Assembly: GCA_029243165.1 (NCBI GenBank)
Contig: JAQWSN010000021.1
Span: forward strand, 1-64,000
Length of the DNA stretch: 64,000 nucleotides
Direction of reading: 5' to 3'
DNA from: Flavobacteriaceae bacterium
GTDB taxonomy: Bacteria > Bacteroidota > Bacteroidia > Flavobacteriales > Flavobacteriaceae
In this document: positions 48,638 to 55,690 of the stretch, one piece after another
Layout of the letters: the number at the start of each line of letters is the position of its first letter
How positions within the stretch are numbered: the stretch's first letter is position 1
The notes under the pieces: model-generated
What the model saw: only the letters and a program-made list of their open reading frames with translations
Database searches by the model: none
What the model was told of the DNA's origin: nothing
Position numbers and translations under genes: made by a program

Positions 48638-49756
48638 TCAATGGTCAGCTAGTGACCGAATGTATTGTTCGATCAGTGCGATTCCTTCTTTATGAGCACT
48701 TACTCGTCCTATTTCGGGCATTCGTATGGCAGGATCGTTATTTTTCATTCGATAAATTAAAATGGATTCTTCAGGATTTCCCGGTACAATACTGTATTCT
48801 AAATTTCCAGATCCTTTTCCAGCGGCAACAGGAGGTTTAAAAACCCCTCTTCTTCTCATGTTGGTTTCATTGTAGGTAAGATAAAGTCCTGAATTTTTTG
48901 CACTTCCTTGTTCTCGATGACAATGAGCACAATTGGCATCTAAATAGGCATTTGCCCGTAGTTTGATTGATCCTGTTTTGGGATCATCCCAAATGGGTAG
49001 TTTGGGTAGGGAAGGGTGGGAGTCTGGTAAATCAAGAATGCCTAAATTTTGAAAACGTTCCAATTGATTTTGAGCACTTTTTATTGCACTGTATTTTTTG
49101 TTGAGTTGTGCCACAGTGGGTCCAATGGGGGTGATTTCACTTCCTTTAAAATGACAATTTTTACATTCATTTAAATTAGGAATCCCGTAGGAGATGCTTT
49201 TGTGCACTTGATTTTCATTTTTCCAGCTGACTGGCACTTCTCCGCCCACGTAGTTTAACTTTGCATCACTTTGACTTTCATTCCAAACATAGTTTAGGGG
49301 TTTCCATCCATCGACTTCTTTAATCAACAATCGAGTTTCAATGATTTTTATTTCATCCATAGGTTTATTGAAGTCCTTTGGATAATAAAAATTTTTAATG
49401 AGAATACTTCCGATTTCAAAATCCAGAACTCCCTCATTTTGGTAAGTCATTTTTTTGCCGTCGGGCAGGAAAATAAACCTTTTTTTAAAGGCATAGTCTG
49501 TAAACAAAGCATTATTCAAATCGTATGCAAATACACCTTTTTTGGGTTGCAGATCAGAAAGCGGTTTTTTGAAAAAATTGTATTCAGACAACCATTCTTT
49601 TTCACTGAGCTTAGAATTACTGATCCTTTTTTTTGAGCTTACTTTAATGGCTTTAGGAATTTGTTTTTTAGAATCAGAAGAACAGCCTAAGCTAAAAGCT
49701 AAGGCACCCAAACAAAATAGAATTTTAAATAAGTGAGTGGTTAATCCTTTTGTCAT
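48638..49756 (-). CDS. SO2930-family diheme c-type cytochrome lipoprotein
   Basis: From the ATG at 49756 this is a 372-residue protein. The signal peptide ends in a lipobox, SLGC with C25, so it is a membrane-anchored lipoprotein. Two heme c motifs are visible: C198-K-N-C-H202 and C276-A-H-C-H280. RMPEIGR near the C-terminus can supply an axial Met. The family is a recognised diheme group typically paired with a beta-helix protein, as here, where the start overlaps the upstream stop (ATGA). It probably carries electrons in the cell envelope. The partner reaction is unknown. Confidence 0.8.
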   Translation of the reverse strand: MTKGLTTHLFKILFCLGALAFSLGCSSDSKKQIPKAIKVSSKKRISNSKLSEKEWLSEYNFFKKPLSDLQPKKGVFAYDLNNALFTDYAFKKRFIFLPDGKKMTYQNEGVLDFEIGSILIKNFYYPKDFNKPMDEIKIIETRLLIKEVDGWKPLNYVWNESQSDAKLNYVGGEVPVSWKNENQVHKSISYGIPNLNECKNCHFKGSEITPIGPTVAQLNKKYSAIKSAQNQLERFQNLGILDLPDSHPSLPKLPIWDDPKTGSIKLRANAYLDANCAHCHREQGSAKNSGLYLTYNETNMRRRGVFKPPVAAGKGSGNLEYSIVPGNPEESILIYRMKNNDPAIRMPEIGRVSAHKEGIALIEQYIRSLADH

Positions 49757-51048
49757 TGTCGGGTCATGTTCATTTTTAATTTGCAATTAAATGGCTCTAG
49801 ATCATTGGAAAAATTCTCAAATTCGTTTGCTGCATCCATGTAGACAAAGTTAATTTCCCCGTTGTCTTCAAGGCATATTTTGTGTTGATCATCTTGAAGT
49901 TTTGCTCCTTTTGGTAAAATACCATCGTACACAACATCTGGAATGATTCTTTTGTTTTTGAGCAACATCAAAATTCCATATTCGTTGGTTAACGTGGGAA
50001 AGCCATAACTATTTTCAAATTGATTTTGAGAAATTTGAATTCTTCCTGGATAAGGATTGTAAAGGCTATCCTTTCTGAAATCCGAATCAACCGAACGAAT
50101 TCCTTGGAGTTGTGCTTCATCTGTTAGTTCCTCTTCACGGGCATCTTCATCTGCTGCAAATATTTCATAACTCACAACAGATAAGTTTGAGGTTTTGTGA
50201 TTTTTAATCGTGTTGTCATAAAATGCAACATCTTGTGTAGCCATGATGACTACTCCAGTGCCTTTGGGTACGGAACTGACAATGGATCCCTTGACTCCAA
50301 AATTTGGGGTGTTATTATTGTAAATGGTGTTTTTGTAAGCTTTTATTTTGCTTCCGTAACGTGTCAATTTGGGGAGATTGAAAATCAGTAGTCCACTGGT
50401 ATTTTCGTAAACTTCGTTGTTGTAGATTTCTACATCTTTACTGTTTTCACTTTCAATTCCTGCAACATTGTAAAATGCTTTGTTATTTCGGATAATTACT
50501 TGATCGGATTGACCCACGTAGATACCTGCATCGGACGCACCAATAGCAACACAATTTTCAATCAAAACGTTATTACTTAAAACGGGATAAATACCATAAG
50601 CACCGTTTTCAGTGGATGCCTTCCCTGTCCATGCAGAACGGATATTTCTTAGGACTACGGTATCACAATCTGTGATTTTAAGATTGTCGCCTGTGGCATC
50701 TTCAATAGTCATATTGGCGAGGGTAATATTTTGGCTATTGGAGACCAGTAAGCCTTGTGCACCCTTTGTTTGACCTTTGAAAGAAAGAACGGTCTTGTCC
50801 ATTCCCATTCCTTTGATCGTAAGGTGTTTTTTTCCATTGATACTCAGCTCTTGAGAAAACAAATAATGTCCTTCGGGTAATTGGATGGTTGAGCTGTCTT
50901 TGGCAAGAATAAAAGCTTCTAAAATTGCTTCTTCCATATTCAGATAGGTCCGTTCTGGATTGTATTCAGGCATTTTTGTCAGATTTACTTTGATTAATAG
51001 TAATGTGAAAATGCCTAGGAATATTAAGCCAATTAATTTTTTCTTCAC
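49753..51048 (-). CDS. Parallel beta-helix repeat protein, partner of the diheme cytochrome
   Basis: This 431-residue protein has an N-terminal signal or anchor (IGLIFLGIFTLLLI) and then a run of right-handed parallel beta-helix turns. Repeats have the form x-V-x-I-x-x-N and cover about residues 70-290, for example NVLIENCVAIG, QVIIRNNKAFYN and DVEIYNNEVYEN. The fold is that of pectate lyases and carbohydrate-active or surface proteins, but I see no catalytic Asp/Arg set. It is coupled to the diheme cytochrome gene by a four-base overlap, a conserved pairing. Confidence 0.82.
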   Translation of the reverse strand: MKKKLIGLIFLGIFTLLLIKVNLTKMPEYNPERTYLNMEEAILEAFILAKDSSTIQLPEGHYLFSQELSINGKKHLTIKGMGMDKTVLSFKGQTKGAQGLLVSNSQNITLANMTIEDATGDNLKITDCDTVVLRNIRSAWTGKASTENGAYGIYPVLSNNVLIENCVAIGASDAGIYVGQSDQVIIRNNKAFYNVAGIESENSKDVEIYNNEVYENTSGLLIFNLPKLTRYGSKIKAYKNTIYNNNTPNFGVKGSIVSSVPKGTGVVIMATQDVAFYDNTIKNHKTSNLSVVSYEIFAADEDAREEELTDEAQLQGIRSVDSDFRKDSLYNPYPGRIQISQNQFENSYGFPTLTNEYGILMLLKNKRIIPDVVYDGILPKGAKLQDDQHKICLEDNGEINFVYMDAANEFENFSNDLEPFNCKLKMNMTRQ

Positions 51049-51190: not shown

Positions 51191-51198
51191 TATATTTG
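51191..51198 (+). promoter_or_regulatory. Candidate -7 box for rimP-nusA-infB
   Basis: TATATTTG matches TAnnTTTG exactly and is preceded by a T-rich tract. Transcription would start near 51205, giving a leader of about 45 bases that consists largely of a terminator-like hairpin. No good -33 TTG is seen at 19-20 bases. Confidence 0.45.
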
Positions 51199-51221
51199 CG
51201 GACATTCTGAACAAAAACCAG

Positions 51222-51248
51222 AGGAGACTTTAAGTCCCCTTTTTTTTT
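51222..51248 (+). terminator. Terminator-like attenuator hairpin directly before rimP
   Basis: GGAGACTT can pair with AAGTCCCC across a short loop, with one A-C mismatch in the stem. A run of nine T (51240-51248) follows, ending two bases before the rimP ATG at 51251. This has the form of an intrinsic terminator placed between the promoter and the first codon, so it probably acts as an attenuator of the operon. Confidence 0.6.
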
Positions 51249-51250
51249 AG

Positions 51251-51715
51251 ATGACATTTAAAGATCAAGTTAATGAATTAGTACAGGTCGCTTTAGACAG
51301 TAGGCCTGATTTGTTTTTGATAGCGTGTAAGATTTCAACAGACAACCACATTAGCATACTTTTGGATGGGGATGAGGGGGTCAATCTGCAGTCTTGTGTA
51401 GAAGTAAGTAGACAAATCGAACACAACTTAGACCGAGAGCAGCATGATTTTTCACTTGAAGTTGCTTCGGCAGGTGTTGGAAGTCCTCTTAAAAAAACAA
51501 GACAGTATGTGAAAAATGTAGGTCGGAAGCTACGGATAGAGCGCAACGAAGCTCCTACAATTGAAGGGACTCTGGTTGATGCAAATGAGGAAAAAGTCAC
51601 CCTCGAGTGGAAACAAAGAGAGCCCAAACCAGTAGGTAAGGGTAAAGTAACAATAACAAAACAAGAAACCCTTTCGTACCAAGAAATAGTCAGTGCGAAA
51701 GTTTTAGTGAAATAA
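51251..51715 (+). CDS. rimP: Ribosome maturation factor RimP
   Basis: RimP assists 30S subunit assembly. The 154-residue protein has the N-terminal alpha/beta domain (DQVNELVQVALDSRPDL, VEVSRQIEHNLDRE, FSLEVASAGVGSPLK) with the conserved EVASxGxxxPL core. The C-terminal SH3-like domain contains GTLVDANEEKVTLEW. It is first in the rimP-nusA-infB operon, an order conserved across bacteria. A terminator-like hairpin lies just before the start, and nusA follows after 15 bases. Confidence 0.93.
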   Translation: MTFKDQVNELVQVALDSRPDLFLIACKISTDNHISILLDGDEGVNLQSCVEVSRQIEHNLDREQHDFSLEVASAGVGSPLKKTRQYVKNVGRKLRIERNEAPTIEGTLVDANEEKVTLEWKQREPKPVGKGKVTITKQETLSYQEIVSAKVLVK

Positions 51716-51730
51716 TTAATTGAAAGTAAA

Positions 51731-52963
51731 ATGGAAAATTTAGCCTTAATTGATTCTTTTTCGGAATTTAAAGATGATAAACTTATTGATCGAGTTACCT
51801 TGATGGTTATTTTGGAAGATGTATTTAAGAATACATTGAAACGTAAGTTCGGGTCGGATGAAAACTTCGATATTATCATTAATCCAGACAAGGGAGATCT
51901 TGAAATCTGGAGAAATAGAGTAGTAGTTGAAGACGGAAATGTTGAGGATTCAAATCAAGAAATTACACTTACAGAGGCACGAAAAATAGAGCCTGATTTT
52001 GAAGTTGGAGAAGATGTTTCTGAAGAAGTAAAACTTGTGGATCTAGGAAGAAGATCGATACAATACCTTAGGCAAAATCTTGTTGCAAAGATTTTTGAGC
52101 ACGACAGTACAAATATCTTCAAGCAGTTTAAAGACCGTGAAGGAGATTTGTACACAGCAGAAGTTCATCATATTAGAAGCCGAGAAATCATTTTATTAGA
52201 TGACGATGGCAATGAGATCATTTTACCTAAAGACAGACAAATTCCTAGTGACTTTTTTAGAAAAGGAGACAATGTAAGAGGGATTATTGAAACAGTTGAA
52301 TTGAGAGGCAATAAACCTCGAATCATTCTTTCGAGAACCTCACCAATTTTCTTAGAAAAATTATTTGAACAAGAAATTCCTGAAGTTTTTGATGGACTTA
52401 TCACGATTAAAAAGGCAGTTAGAATTCCAGGAGAAAAAGCAAAGGTTGCTGTAGATTCTTATGATGATCGTATTGATCCAGTTGGGGCTTGTGTGGGTAT
52501 GAAAGGTTCAAGAATTCATGGAATTGTACGTGAACTTGGAAATGAAAACATTGACGTTATCAATTACACCAACAACTTGCAACTGTTTATTTCAAGAGCA
52601 CTAAGTCCAGCTAAAGTTAATTCTCTCAAAATTGATGAAGAAAACAAACGTGTGGAAGTGATCCTCAATCCAGAGGAGGTCTCTAAGGCTATTGGAAAAG
52701 GAGGAACGAATATTCGACTTGCAGGAAAGTTGACAGGATATGAAATAGACGTTTTCCGCGAAGGTGTGGAAGAAGACATTGAGCTCAAAGAATTCAGTGA
52801 TGAGATAGAGCAGTGGATTATTGATGAATTTAAAAAGGTAGGTTTAGATACAGCAAAAAGTATTTTAGAGCTAGATAAAACCGACTTAATTAAACGTACT
52901 GACCTTGAAGAGGAAACGATTCAAGAGGTTTTACAAATATTGAAAGCAGAATTTGAAGAATAG
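51731..52963 (+). CDS. nusA: Transcription termination/antitermination factor NusA
   Basis: NusA binds RNA polymerase and modulates pausing, termination and antitermination. The 410-residue protein has an N-terminal RNAP-binding domain (1-130), an S1 domain near 135-200, and two KH domains, with VGACVGMKGSRIHGI in KH1 and KAIGKGGTNIRLA in KH2. It ends after a short acidic region. The E. coli-type C-terminal acidic repeats are absent, as in most Bacteroidota. It is coupled to rimP and is followed by infB after 42 bases. Confidence 0.96.
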   Translation: MENLALIDSFSEFKDDKLIDRVTLMVILEDVFKNTLKRKFGSDENFDIIINPDKGDLEIWRNRVVVEDGNVEDSNQEITLTEARKIEPDFEVGEDVSEEVKLVDLGRRSIQYLRQNLVAKIFEHDSTNIFKQFKDREGDLYTAEVHHIRSREIILLDDDGNEIILPKDRQIPSDFFRKGDNVRGIIETVELRGNKPRIILSRTSPIFLEKLFEQEIPEVFDGLITIKKAVRIPGEKAKVAVDSYDDRIDPVGACVGMKGSRIHGIVRELGNENIDVINYTNNLQLFISRALSPAKVNSLKIDEENKRVEVILNPEEVSKAIGKGGTNIRLAGKLTGYEIDVFREGVEEDIELKEFSDEIEQWIIDEFKKVGLDTAKSILELDKTDLIKRTDLEEETIQEVLQILKAEFEE

Positions 52964-53005: not shown

Positions 53006-55690
53006 ATGGCTGATCAACCCAGCGTTCGACTAAATAAAGTGTTAAGGGAACTCAACATATCCCTTGACCGAGCTGTTGAATTTCTGAATCAAAAGGGAAT
53101 TGAAGTAGACGCACGTCCCACAACAAAAATTACCACTGAGGTGTACAAGACCCTTTTGGATGAATTCGAGACGGATAAATCCAAAAAAGTAGCCTCTCAT
53201 GAAATTAGTGAGGAGAAGCGAAAGGAAAAGGAAACTTTGAGGATTATTCAGGAAAAGAAAGAACAAGAACGCTTAGATCAAATTGCCGAAAGAGAGGCGC
53301 TGAAAACAAATAGGGTCGCGTTAGAAAAACCCAAAACTTTAGGAAAGATTGATTTGGACTCTTTAAACAAGCCTTCCCCACCAGCCAAAGAGGAGGTGAA
53401 GCCTGTTGAAAAGAAAGAAGAGGTCGTTGCACCCAAAATAGAAGCTGAAAAAGTGGAAGAAAAACAAACTCCACCTGCAACTCCTGATGAACCTGCTGTT
53501 AAAGTATCAGCCGAAAAAGAAGAGGGTTCTAAAAATGCCTCAGATAACGAAAGCGAAACTTTAAAAACAAAATACACAAAGTTAACCGGTCCTAAGAAAA
53601 CCGGTCAAACAATTAACTTGGATGAGGTCAATAAAAAAGAAAAAACGGTAGAAGACGCACGTAAGAGAAAGCGAAAAAGAATAAGTAAAGACGTTAAGCC
53701 CTCAGCCAATAAAAACAATAACTCCAACAATCGAGGTGGAGGACAAAGGAAAGGAAGACCAAACAATACAGTCAAGAAGGAAGAGCCTACAGAAGAAGAA
53801 GTTCAAAAACAAATTAGAGAAACTTTAGAAAAACTTCAAGGTAAATCCAATAAATCTAAAGGAGCCAAATACAGAAGAGATAAAAGAGTTCAACACCGAC
53901 AAAAATCGGAAGAGGAATTGGCTCAGATTGAGGCGGAAAGTAAAGTATTAAAAGTAACCGAATTCATCACGGTGGGAGAAGTAGCAACCATGATGAATAT
54001 TACCTCCACAGAAATTATTTCTGCATGTATGAGTTTGGGTATCATGGTAACGATGAACCAAAGATTAGATGCGGAAACCTTAAGTATCGTAGCTGACGAA
54101 TTTGGTTATGAAGTGACCTTTGAAAAAGCTGAGCTTGAGGAGAATATTGAAGAGGTAGAAGACCTTGAGGAAGATTTGGCTCCACGAGCTCCTATTGTAA
54201 CTGTGATGGGACATGTTGATCACGGAAAAACTTCACTATTGGATTACATACGAGAAGAAAATGTGATCGCTGGAGAATCAGGTGGAATAACCCAGCACAT
54301 TGGTGCTTATGGAGTAACCTTAGATGGCGGACAGAAAATAACTTTCTTAGATACCCCCGGTCACGAAGCTTTTACCGCTATGCGTGCAAGAGGAGCCCAA
54401 GTTACTGACATTGCCATTATTGTTGTAGCTGCAGATGATGACATCATGCCTCAAACCAAAGAAGCTATTAGTCATGCACAAGCAGCAAATGTTCCCATAG
54501 TATTTGCAATAAACAAAATCGATAAAGAAAGTGCTAATCCAGATAAAATCAAGGAAGCACTTGCGGGAATGAATCTTATGGTAGAAGATTGGGGTGGAAA
54601 AGTCCAGTCTCACGATGTGTCTGCTTTAAAAGGTACGGGTGTCAAAGAATTACTTGAAAAGGTACTTCTGGAAGCAGAACTTCTTGAACTCAAGGCAAAC
54701 CCAAATCGGGCTGCTAAAGGAACCGTTGTTGAGGCCTTCCTAGATAAAGGAAGAGGATATGTTTCTACTATCCTTGTGCAAAATGGTACTCTTAAAATGG
54801 GGGATTATTTACTAGCGGGTAAACATAGCGGAAAAGTAAAAGCAATTTTTAATGAAAGAGGAGTAAGCCTTGAAGAAGCACCCCCTTCAACACCGGTCTC
54901 TATTCTTGGTTTAGATGGAGCTCCGCAGGCAGGAGACTCTTTTTATATTTTGGAGGACGAACGTGAAGCAAAACAAATTGCAGCCAAAAGAACCCAGTTG
55001 CTTAGAGAACAAAGTGTAAGAACACAACGACATATTACATTAGACGAGATCGGTAGACGAATTGCTCTTGGTGATTTCAAAGAATTGAATATCATCTTAA
55101 AAGGAGATGTTGACGGTTCTGTCGAAGCGCTTACCGATTCATTACAAAAACTCTCTACAGGAGAAATTGAAATTAAGATCATTCACAAAGGTGTAGGAGC
55201 TATCACAGAATCAGATGTGCTTTTAGCCTCTGCTTCGGATGCTATTGTGATCGGGTTTAACGTAAGACCGATGGGGAATGCCCGTGCCATTGCCGAAAAA
55301 GAAGAAATCGACATTCGTTCGTATTCCATTATTTATGATGCAATCAATGACATCAAAGATGCGATGGAAGGAATGCTGTCTCCAGAAATGCGTGAAGAGA
55401 TTACTGGAAATGCTGAGATCCGAGAAACATTCAAGATTTCTAAAATTGGAACCATTGCAGGTTGTATGGTTACCACAGGTAAAATCTACAGAAACTCTGG
55501 AATACGAATTATTCGAGAAGGCGTTGTGATTTTCACAGGACAACTTACCTCTTTAAAACGGTTTAAAGACGATGTTAAAGAAGTCTCTAAAGGCTATGAT
55601 TGTGGTTTGCAGGTTAAAAACTACAACGATATCAAAGTAGGTGATGTTTTAGAATGTTTCCAAGAAGTAGCGATTAAAAAATCACTTTAA
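53006..55690 (+). CDS. infB: Translation initiation factor IF-2
   Basis: IF-2 is the GTPase that positions initiator tRNA on the 30S subunit. The 894-residue protein has an IF2_N domain ([20 protein letters not shown]), a long charged, low-complexity linker rich in Lys, Glu and Pro (about residues 60-310), and a second N-terminal domain near 315-370. The G domain follows with G1 [10 protein letters not shown]3 DTPGHEAF and G4 NKID. Domains II to IV complete the protein. Its last nine bases overlap the convergent SPOR gene. Confidence 0.97.

Follow-up and report, generated by a model that had tools for sequence, protein, structure and literature searches.

The 5' leader of the rimP-nusA-infB operon in this genome is probably an ultra-short attenuator, in which some transcripts end about 45 nt from the transcription start and NusA raises this partial termination. 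As judged from sequence, the element appears to be the form that the published rimP-leader attenuator takes in Bacteroidota. The kind is already known; what appears to be new is that, in this phylum, the stems are specific to clades and the leader is ultra-short. We found the element in a 64,000-nucleotide stretch of contig JAQWSN010000021.1 (the window).

All parts of the locus lie on the + strand. A promoter -7 box that fits the Bacteroidota pattern TAnnTTTG (TATATTTG) occupies positions 51191-51198. We infer a start site about 5 nt after this box, which gives a short 5' leader (51203-51220) ahead of a terminator-like hairpin, GAGGAGACTTTAAGTCCCCTT (51221-51241; arms GAGGAGAC-TTTAA-GTCCCCTT). 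The stem is imperfect, with A.C at one position. A run of nine Ts, the predicted U tract and termination zone, spans 51240-51248, and the ATG of rimP (51251-51715; Pfam PF02576 and PF17384) comes two bases after the run ends. The box, the hairpin, the run of nine Ts and the two-base gap are as the preliminary description had them. Downstream are nusA (51731-52963; PF08529, PF13184 and PF23095) and infB, which encodes IF-2 (53006-55690; PF11987, PF04760 and others). (The N-terminal and KH domains of NusA were matched; an S1 model was absent among its Pfam matches at E 0.001.)

The upstream neighbor (49753-51048) is transcribed from the other strand, away from rimP, so we reject the idea that the hairpin is that gene's terminator. 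Comparable hairpins lie within 110 nt upstream of 4 of the window's 49 genes, and only at rimP is such a hairpin preceded, within 35 nt, by a TAnnTTTG box. A second hairpin with a T-rich tail (-9.1 kcal/mol; about 51671-51701 on the + strand) is inside the operon, at the end of rimP and upstream of nusA.

Taken alone, the window's hairpin is weak and its folding energy is unexceptional. It folds at -7.9 kcal/mol (z = -1.04), and 37 of 200 shuffled sequences are equally stable. For a longer leader, z is -1.09 and 27 of 200 shuffles are as stable. A simple hairpin scanner reported the rimP-leader hairpin on the - strand only. Because the lone sequence folds no better than its shuffles, the case rests on comparison. 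Folding alone (z of about -1) does not exclude a chance hairpin, which is instead ruled out by the comparison across the phylum. It is the conservation and the position of the hairpin that exceed chance.

For this comparison, we searched the 110 nt upstream of rimP for hairpins that have a T-rich tail and a folding energy of at most -5 kcal/mol. (Any N counted as A in these scans.) Across the phylum, 170 of the 172 leaders scanned have such a hairpin, with related sequences counted as separate. The corresponding counts are 94/860 for shuffled leaders and 20/172 for the adjacent 110 nt further upstream. By set, hairpins were found in 30/30 leaders from the window's genus, 43/43 from public genome contigs, 14/14 from the order, 19/19 from the class, 36/37 from the rest of the phylum, and 28/29 of the first loci of the phylum draw. 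A caveat is that in the most distant set, shuffles also score often (41/185), and some of the hairpins may belong to the upstream gene.

The phylum search found RimP in 192 genomes. Besides the window's own, 85 of these were read: 29 were fetched by search and 56 were hand-picked for spread among families. The order set holds 14 leaders fetched from 17 order-level matches. We dropped L031, which shares a contig with L002, and L074, for which no start was found; the pattern-found loci L076-L135 are outside the 172. There is some overlap of species between sets: L303, which shares its genome with L162, has a RimP 100% identical to the RimP of L060.

The stems are specific to clades. Examples are GAGGGGAC/GTCCCCTC, GAGGGAAC/GTTCCCTC, GAGGCACGC/GCGTGCCTC, AAGTGGGG/CCCCACTT, and AAAGTCCCGC/GCGGGACTTT. 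Overall, the 5' arm contains GGG in 110 of 170 leaders and CCC in 14 of 170; in the most distant set, 13 of 36 hairpins have CCC in this arm. L036, L037, L145, L169, and L289 have very different stems in the same place, such as AAAAGAGC/GCTCTTTT and TTTGGGGAGC/GCTCCCCAAG. From their sequences, these appear to be lineages with turnover of the stem.

Within the window's genus, RimP was detected in 33 of 37 genomes, and we read 30 leaders, including the window's own. The preliminary description had held that absence of the hairpin from close relatives would speak against attenuation. The hairpin is present in all 30, and attenuation is not refuted. The TAnnTTTG box before it is strict in 29 of them and has one mismatch in L018. 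(The leader ahead of the hairpin has a median length of 19 nt among 29 genus leaders.) In the genus hairpin, AGGAGAC faces GTCCC(C), and the T run stops 1-3 bases before the ATG. All 30 leaders have an A instead of a G in the 5' arm. Opposite is GTCCCC (23 leaders) or GTCCC (7 leaders), which leaves an A.C mismatch (23) or a bulged A (7) without a compensating change. The genus hairpins are weaker than those of the other sets (median of -7.5 versus -12.7 to -16.4 kcal/mol), and their T runs are longer (median of 9 versus 3-7). Over the whole set, hairpin energy trades off against T-run length (rho = 0.48), but this is not significant within any single group.

A strict pattern for the genus element has one match in the window's own genome (2.09 Mb). 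Of 38 genus genomes, 33 have a match, and every one of the 33 has it at rimP. Four of the five genomes with no match also have no detectable RimP (their completeness is 54-75%), and the fifth, G011, has RimP. Two genomes, G008 and G026, each have one additional palindromic site that matches the pattern. These extra copies (G026:C90:21066-21092 and G008:C31:42834-42861) match on both strands and are probably ordinary two-way terminators. RimP was not found in the stretch fetched around the G026 copy (L095).

We also compared the distances from the hairpin to the promoter and to the start codon. Of 170 leaders, 141 carry a strict TAnnTTTG box in the 60 nt that precede the hairpin; in the most distant set, this share drops to 12 of 36. 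The box-to-hairpin distance has set medians of 12 to 26.5 nt (six sets) and a range of 5-30 nt. Hairpin-to-start distances span 6-81 nt over all sets, but start codons were chosen by a script and some distances may be wrong. Within the genus, the hairpin is 6-10 nt from the start (interquartile range 9-9) and 18-29 nt from the box; in the order set, these distances are 11-25 and 13-28 nt. The tighter distance to the ATG in these two sets would suit an element that acts on translation or mRNA stability. That is, a 5' hairpin might protect the mRNA or gate ribosomes, with the T run as a U-rich landing site for ribosomes. But over all sets it is the distance to the start that varies more (6-81 versus 5-30 nt), and in one Flavobacteriales group the hairpin is up to about 40 nt from the start, so we consider a translational element improbable. 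Because the start distance is the tighter one in the genus and the order, distance alone cannot tell a role in transcription from one in translation.

The preliminary description had also pointed to GAGGAGA as a sequence like a Shine-Dalgarno site. This motif is the 5' arm of the hairpin. Its distance to the ATG is 28-32 nt within the genus and reaches 61 nt in other leaders. Given this long and variable distance, we reject a Shine-Dalgarno role.

Nor did we find an antiterminator, for which so short a leader leaves little space. Among the 138 leaders with a strict box, there are none (0/138) in which pairing between the pre-hairpin sequence and the 5' arm is as strong as the hairpin, and we reject an antiterminator inside the leader. 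The earlier suggestion that the hairpin cuts most transcripts unless antiterminated was therefore too strong: the hairpin is weak, no antiterminator was found, and partial termination would be enough. The lack of an antiterminator and the very small size of the leader would also fit a plain constitutive damper or pause site, which would reduce output by a fixed amount with no sensor. However, a weaker promoter would be a simpler route to the same end. Also, conservation throughout the sample and a near-invariant stem within the family (see below) would suggest regulation or recognition. A fixed damper thus seems rather unlikely.

In the family, the stem is conserved in sequence as well as in pairing. 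The pattern AGGGGACN{2,8}GTCCCCTCTTTT matched in 85 of 120 family genomes (one per genus), once each, while a reversed control of the pattern had no matches in these 120 genomes. Of the 85 matches, 30 were fetched, and rimP is directly downstream in all 30. (The window's own stem form fails this stricter pattern.) As a matched control, we used the 3' hairpins of one gene, rpsT, from 30 family genomes (one per genus; RimP was found in 29). On average, the arms of the rimP leaders are 94% (5') and 92% (3') alike, with 4 distinct 5' cores among 29 genera. The arms of the rpsT terminators are 51% and 50% alike, with 25 distinct cores among 30. Similarly, GGG is in the 5' arm of 28/29 rimP leaders and 0/30 rpsT hairpins from the same genomes. 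As the rpsT arms diverge and the rimP arms are near-identical, the rimP stem seems to be kept by sequence and not by pairing alone. In this comparison with one control gene, the family stem appears to be conserved beyond other terminators. A near-invariant stem in one family exceeds the needs of plain termination, which is a point against the attenuator reading.

Arms that are conserved and symmetric could also act at the DNA rather than the RNA level, as a palindromic operator to which a dimeric repressor binds. But the spacing between the half-sites varies, with loops of 3-6 nt among the 29 family genera and 3-7 nt in the matches to the family pattern. Furthermore, the stems differ between clades while pairing is kept, and the window's genus has the A.C mismatch or the bulged A in 30/30 leaders. 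We reject the operator on account of the variable loop length and consider it highly improbable. The family stem of the attenuator might double as a sequence-specific recognition element, in which NusA or another factor reads GAGGGGAC/GUCCCCUC, or the released leader RNA (about 45 nt) might have a role in trans. We think this addition is possible but doubtful. If it is true, then the code would have diverged in the window's genus, where the A.C mismatch or the bulged A is fixed and the U tract is longer.

The preliminary description had proposed a search for compensatory changes in other Bacteroidota. Stems from different clades do keep their pairing, but the support is weaker on an alignment made from sequence. 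Among 75 distinct hairpins from outside the genus (L032-L197), each of pairs 1-7, counted outward from the loop, shows four or five standard pair types, but these hairpins had been selected by their pairing, and their registers differ. A MAFFT alignment of 48 leaders, made from sequence, has two-sided change at all 8 pairs. It has 22 two-sided cells versus 11.2 in shuffles, and 74.1% of cells are paired versus 71.3%. When the structure is slid along this alignment, it has 25, 23, and 21 two-sided cells (for slides of -1, -2, and +1) versus 22 in the true register; the covariation score is 0.255 in the true register versus 0.230 for the +1 slide. Because the pair counts come from hairpins chosen for pairing and slid structures score similarly, the covariation seems supportive but not decisive.

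A covariance model (R2) built from 19 leaders gave 99 matches in 86 of 149 class genomes at E of 0.01 or better. Its match in the window (51191-51248, E = 7.1e-8) is the only one in that genome. In all of the 30 best matches (of 99), rimP is just downstream, although the scores of the window and at least two others of these 30 are not independent because they are training sequences. Some genomes have second matches elsewhere or on the other strand. Overall, the element appears to be single-copy and specific to rimP in the window's genome and in the best class-wide matches.

The published system that this most concerns is described in passages of Naville and Gautheret 2010 (PMC2965389), where the rimP leader is the most ubiquitous attenuator and NusA is suggested as its partner. 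As described there, that attenuator shares several features with ours: a short terminator hairpin ahead of rimP in the rimP-nusA-infB operon, no antiterminator, unusual conservation of the stem sequence, and a 5' arm richer in G than in C (here in most leaders of the class). Its stem, given in that text as GGGc/gCCC, can be compared with the family stem GAGGGGAC/GTCCCCTC. Unlike the stem in that text, the window's 5' arm (GAGGAGAC) has no GGG. All 30 genus leaders have CCC in the 3' arm and none of the 30 has GGG in the 5' arm; in the other terminator-like hairpins of the window, the 5' arm has GGG in 8/31 and CCC in 5/31. The leader also differs in size from that of B. subtilis: the hairpin here would begin about 18 nt after the start, while the B. 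subtilis rimP leader is given as 180 nt (PMC2965389). The main text of PMC2965389 contains no word starting with "bacteroid".

Rfam's rimP family from gammaproteobacteria (RF01770) has the same position relative to the gene, but its covariance model did not reach the gathering cut-off in any of 31 genomes, including the window's. Five of the 31 have weaker matches, none of them at rimP. (The E. coli control was matched.) In searches with Rfam families, only tRNAs were over the cut-off; 15 weak matches in 151 nt were below it, and RF01770 was not among them.

Other reports also bear on the element. In S. agalactiae, according to a section of PMC4448216, transcription of the same operon terminates 31 nt after the start, with short and long RNAs seen by RNA-seq. 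This is a similarly early stop, in a different phylum. A transcriptome of F. psychrophilum lists rimP among structured 5' elements, which occur in other Flavobacteriaceae genera and have no Rfam matches (PMC9723704). The rimP leader is also named, in an excerpt of PMC5391140, among ProQ-associated RNAs that derive from attenuators. Our literature search, which most subscription journals lay outside, found no description of the element across Bacteroidota, and the main texts of two B. thetaiotaomicron transcriptome papers do not mention rimP, nusA, or infB.

In the mechanism that we propose, RNA polymerase would start about 5 nt after TATATTTG and transcribe about 18 nt before the hairpin and the U9 tract form. 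Some of the complexes would then stop and release about 45 nt of RNA, while the others would read through into rimP-nusA-infB. Because there is no built-in antiterminator, the fraction that stops would depend on factors that ride on the polymerase. We consider NusA, which the second gene encodes, the likeliest of these: high free NusA would give more termination and low NusA more read-through. Among genus leaders, 10 of 29 have the motif GAAC ahead of the hairpin versus 1.6 expected from shuffling, and beyond the genus the counts are 16/100 versus 5.5 and 1/9 versus 0.3 (related sequences are counted apart in all of these). The motif resembles a mycobacterial NusA site and may be a NusA contact. 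NusA is a natural candidate because it is encoded in the operon, because it assists suboptimal hairpins in the model of PMC8060035 (in the portion of that paper that we cite), and because it is reported to be autoregulated in B. subtilis. There, as a passage of a review has it (PMC12288461, citing Mondal 2016), NusA stimulates termination in its own leader. In both cases, a terminator or terminator-like hairpin sits in the leader of an operon that encodes NusA, although here it is predicted from the DNA. NusA autoregulation in this organism, carried over from other phyla, is plausible. As for attenuation in the leader as first proposed, the 170 conserved hairpins, the pairing kept in changing stems, and the specificity for rimP all support it; termination itself, and NusA as the sensor, are what we infer.

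The attenuator might instead be sensed by NusG or by cold-shock (Csp) proteins, with the latter melting the hairpin and causing read-through in the cold. Csp proteins act in antitermination at the E. coli rimP-nusA-infB operon. The window's genome encodes one cold-shock-domain protein. In E. coli, two terminators lie upstream of rimP in the operon, and its transcripts go up on cold stress (PMC6511841). In B. subtilis, only 12% of identified intrinsic terminators work without both NusA and NusG, as a passage of PMC8060035 reports. However, a control genome, Bacteroides ihuae, had no match to the cold-shock family, while the hairpin is in the phylum's leaders (those of other genomes). Overall, we consider sensing by NusG or Csp proteins unlikely.

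Transcription and translation take their pace from NusA and IF-2. If the leader is an attenuator that responds to NusA, then this leader, which spans about 45 nt, has no sensor domain and is kept throughout the phylum, would act as a minimal feedback brake. It would also offer a clean way to ask whether widely separated bacteria share NusA autoregulation. A further product of the comparison is a covariance model of this element, which the Rfam rimP family misses in these genomes.
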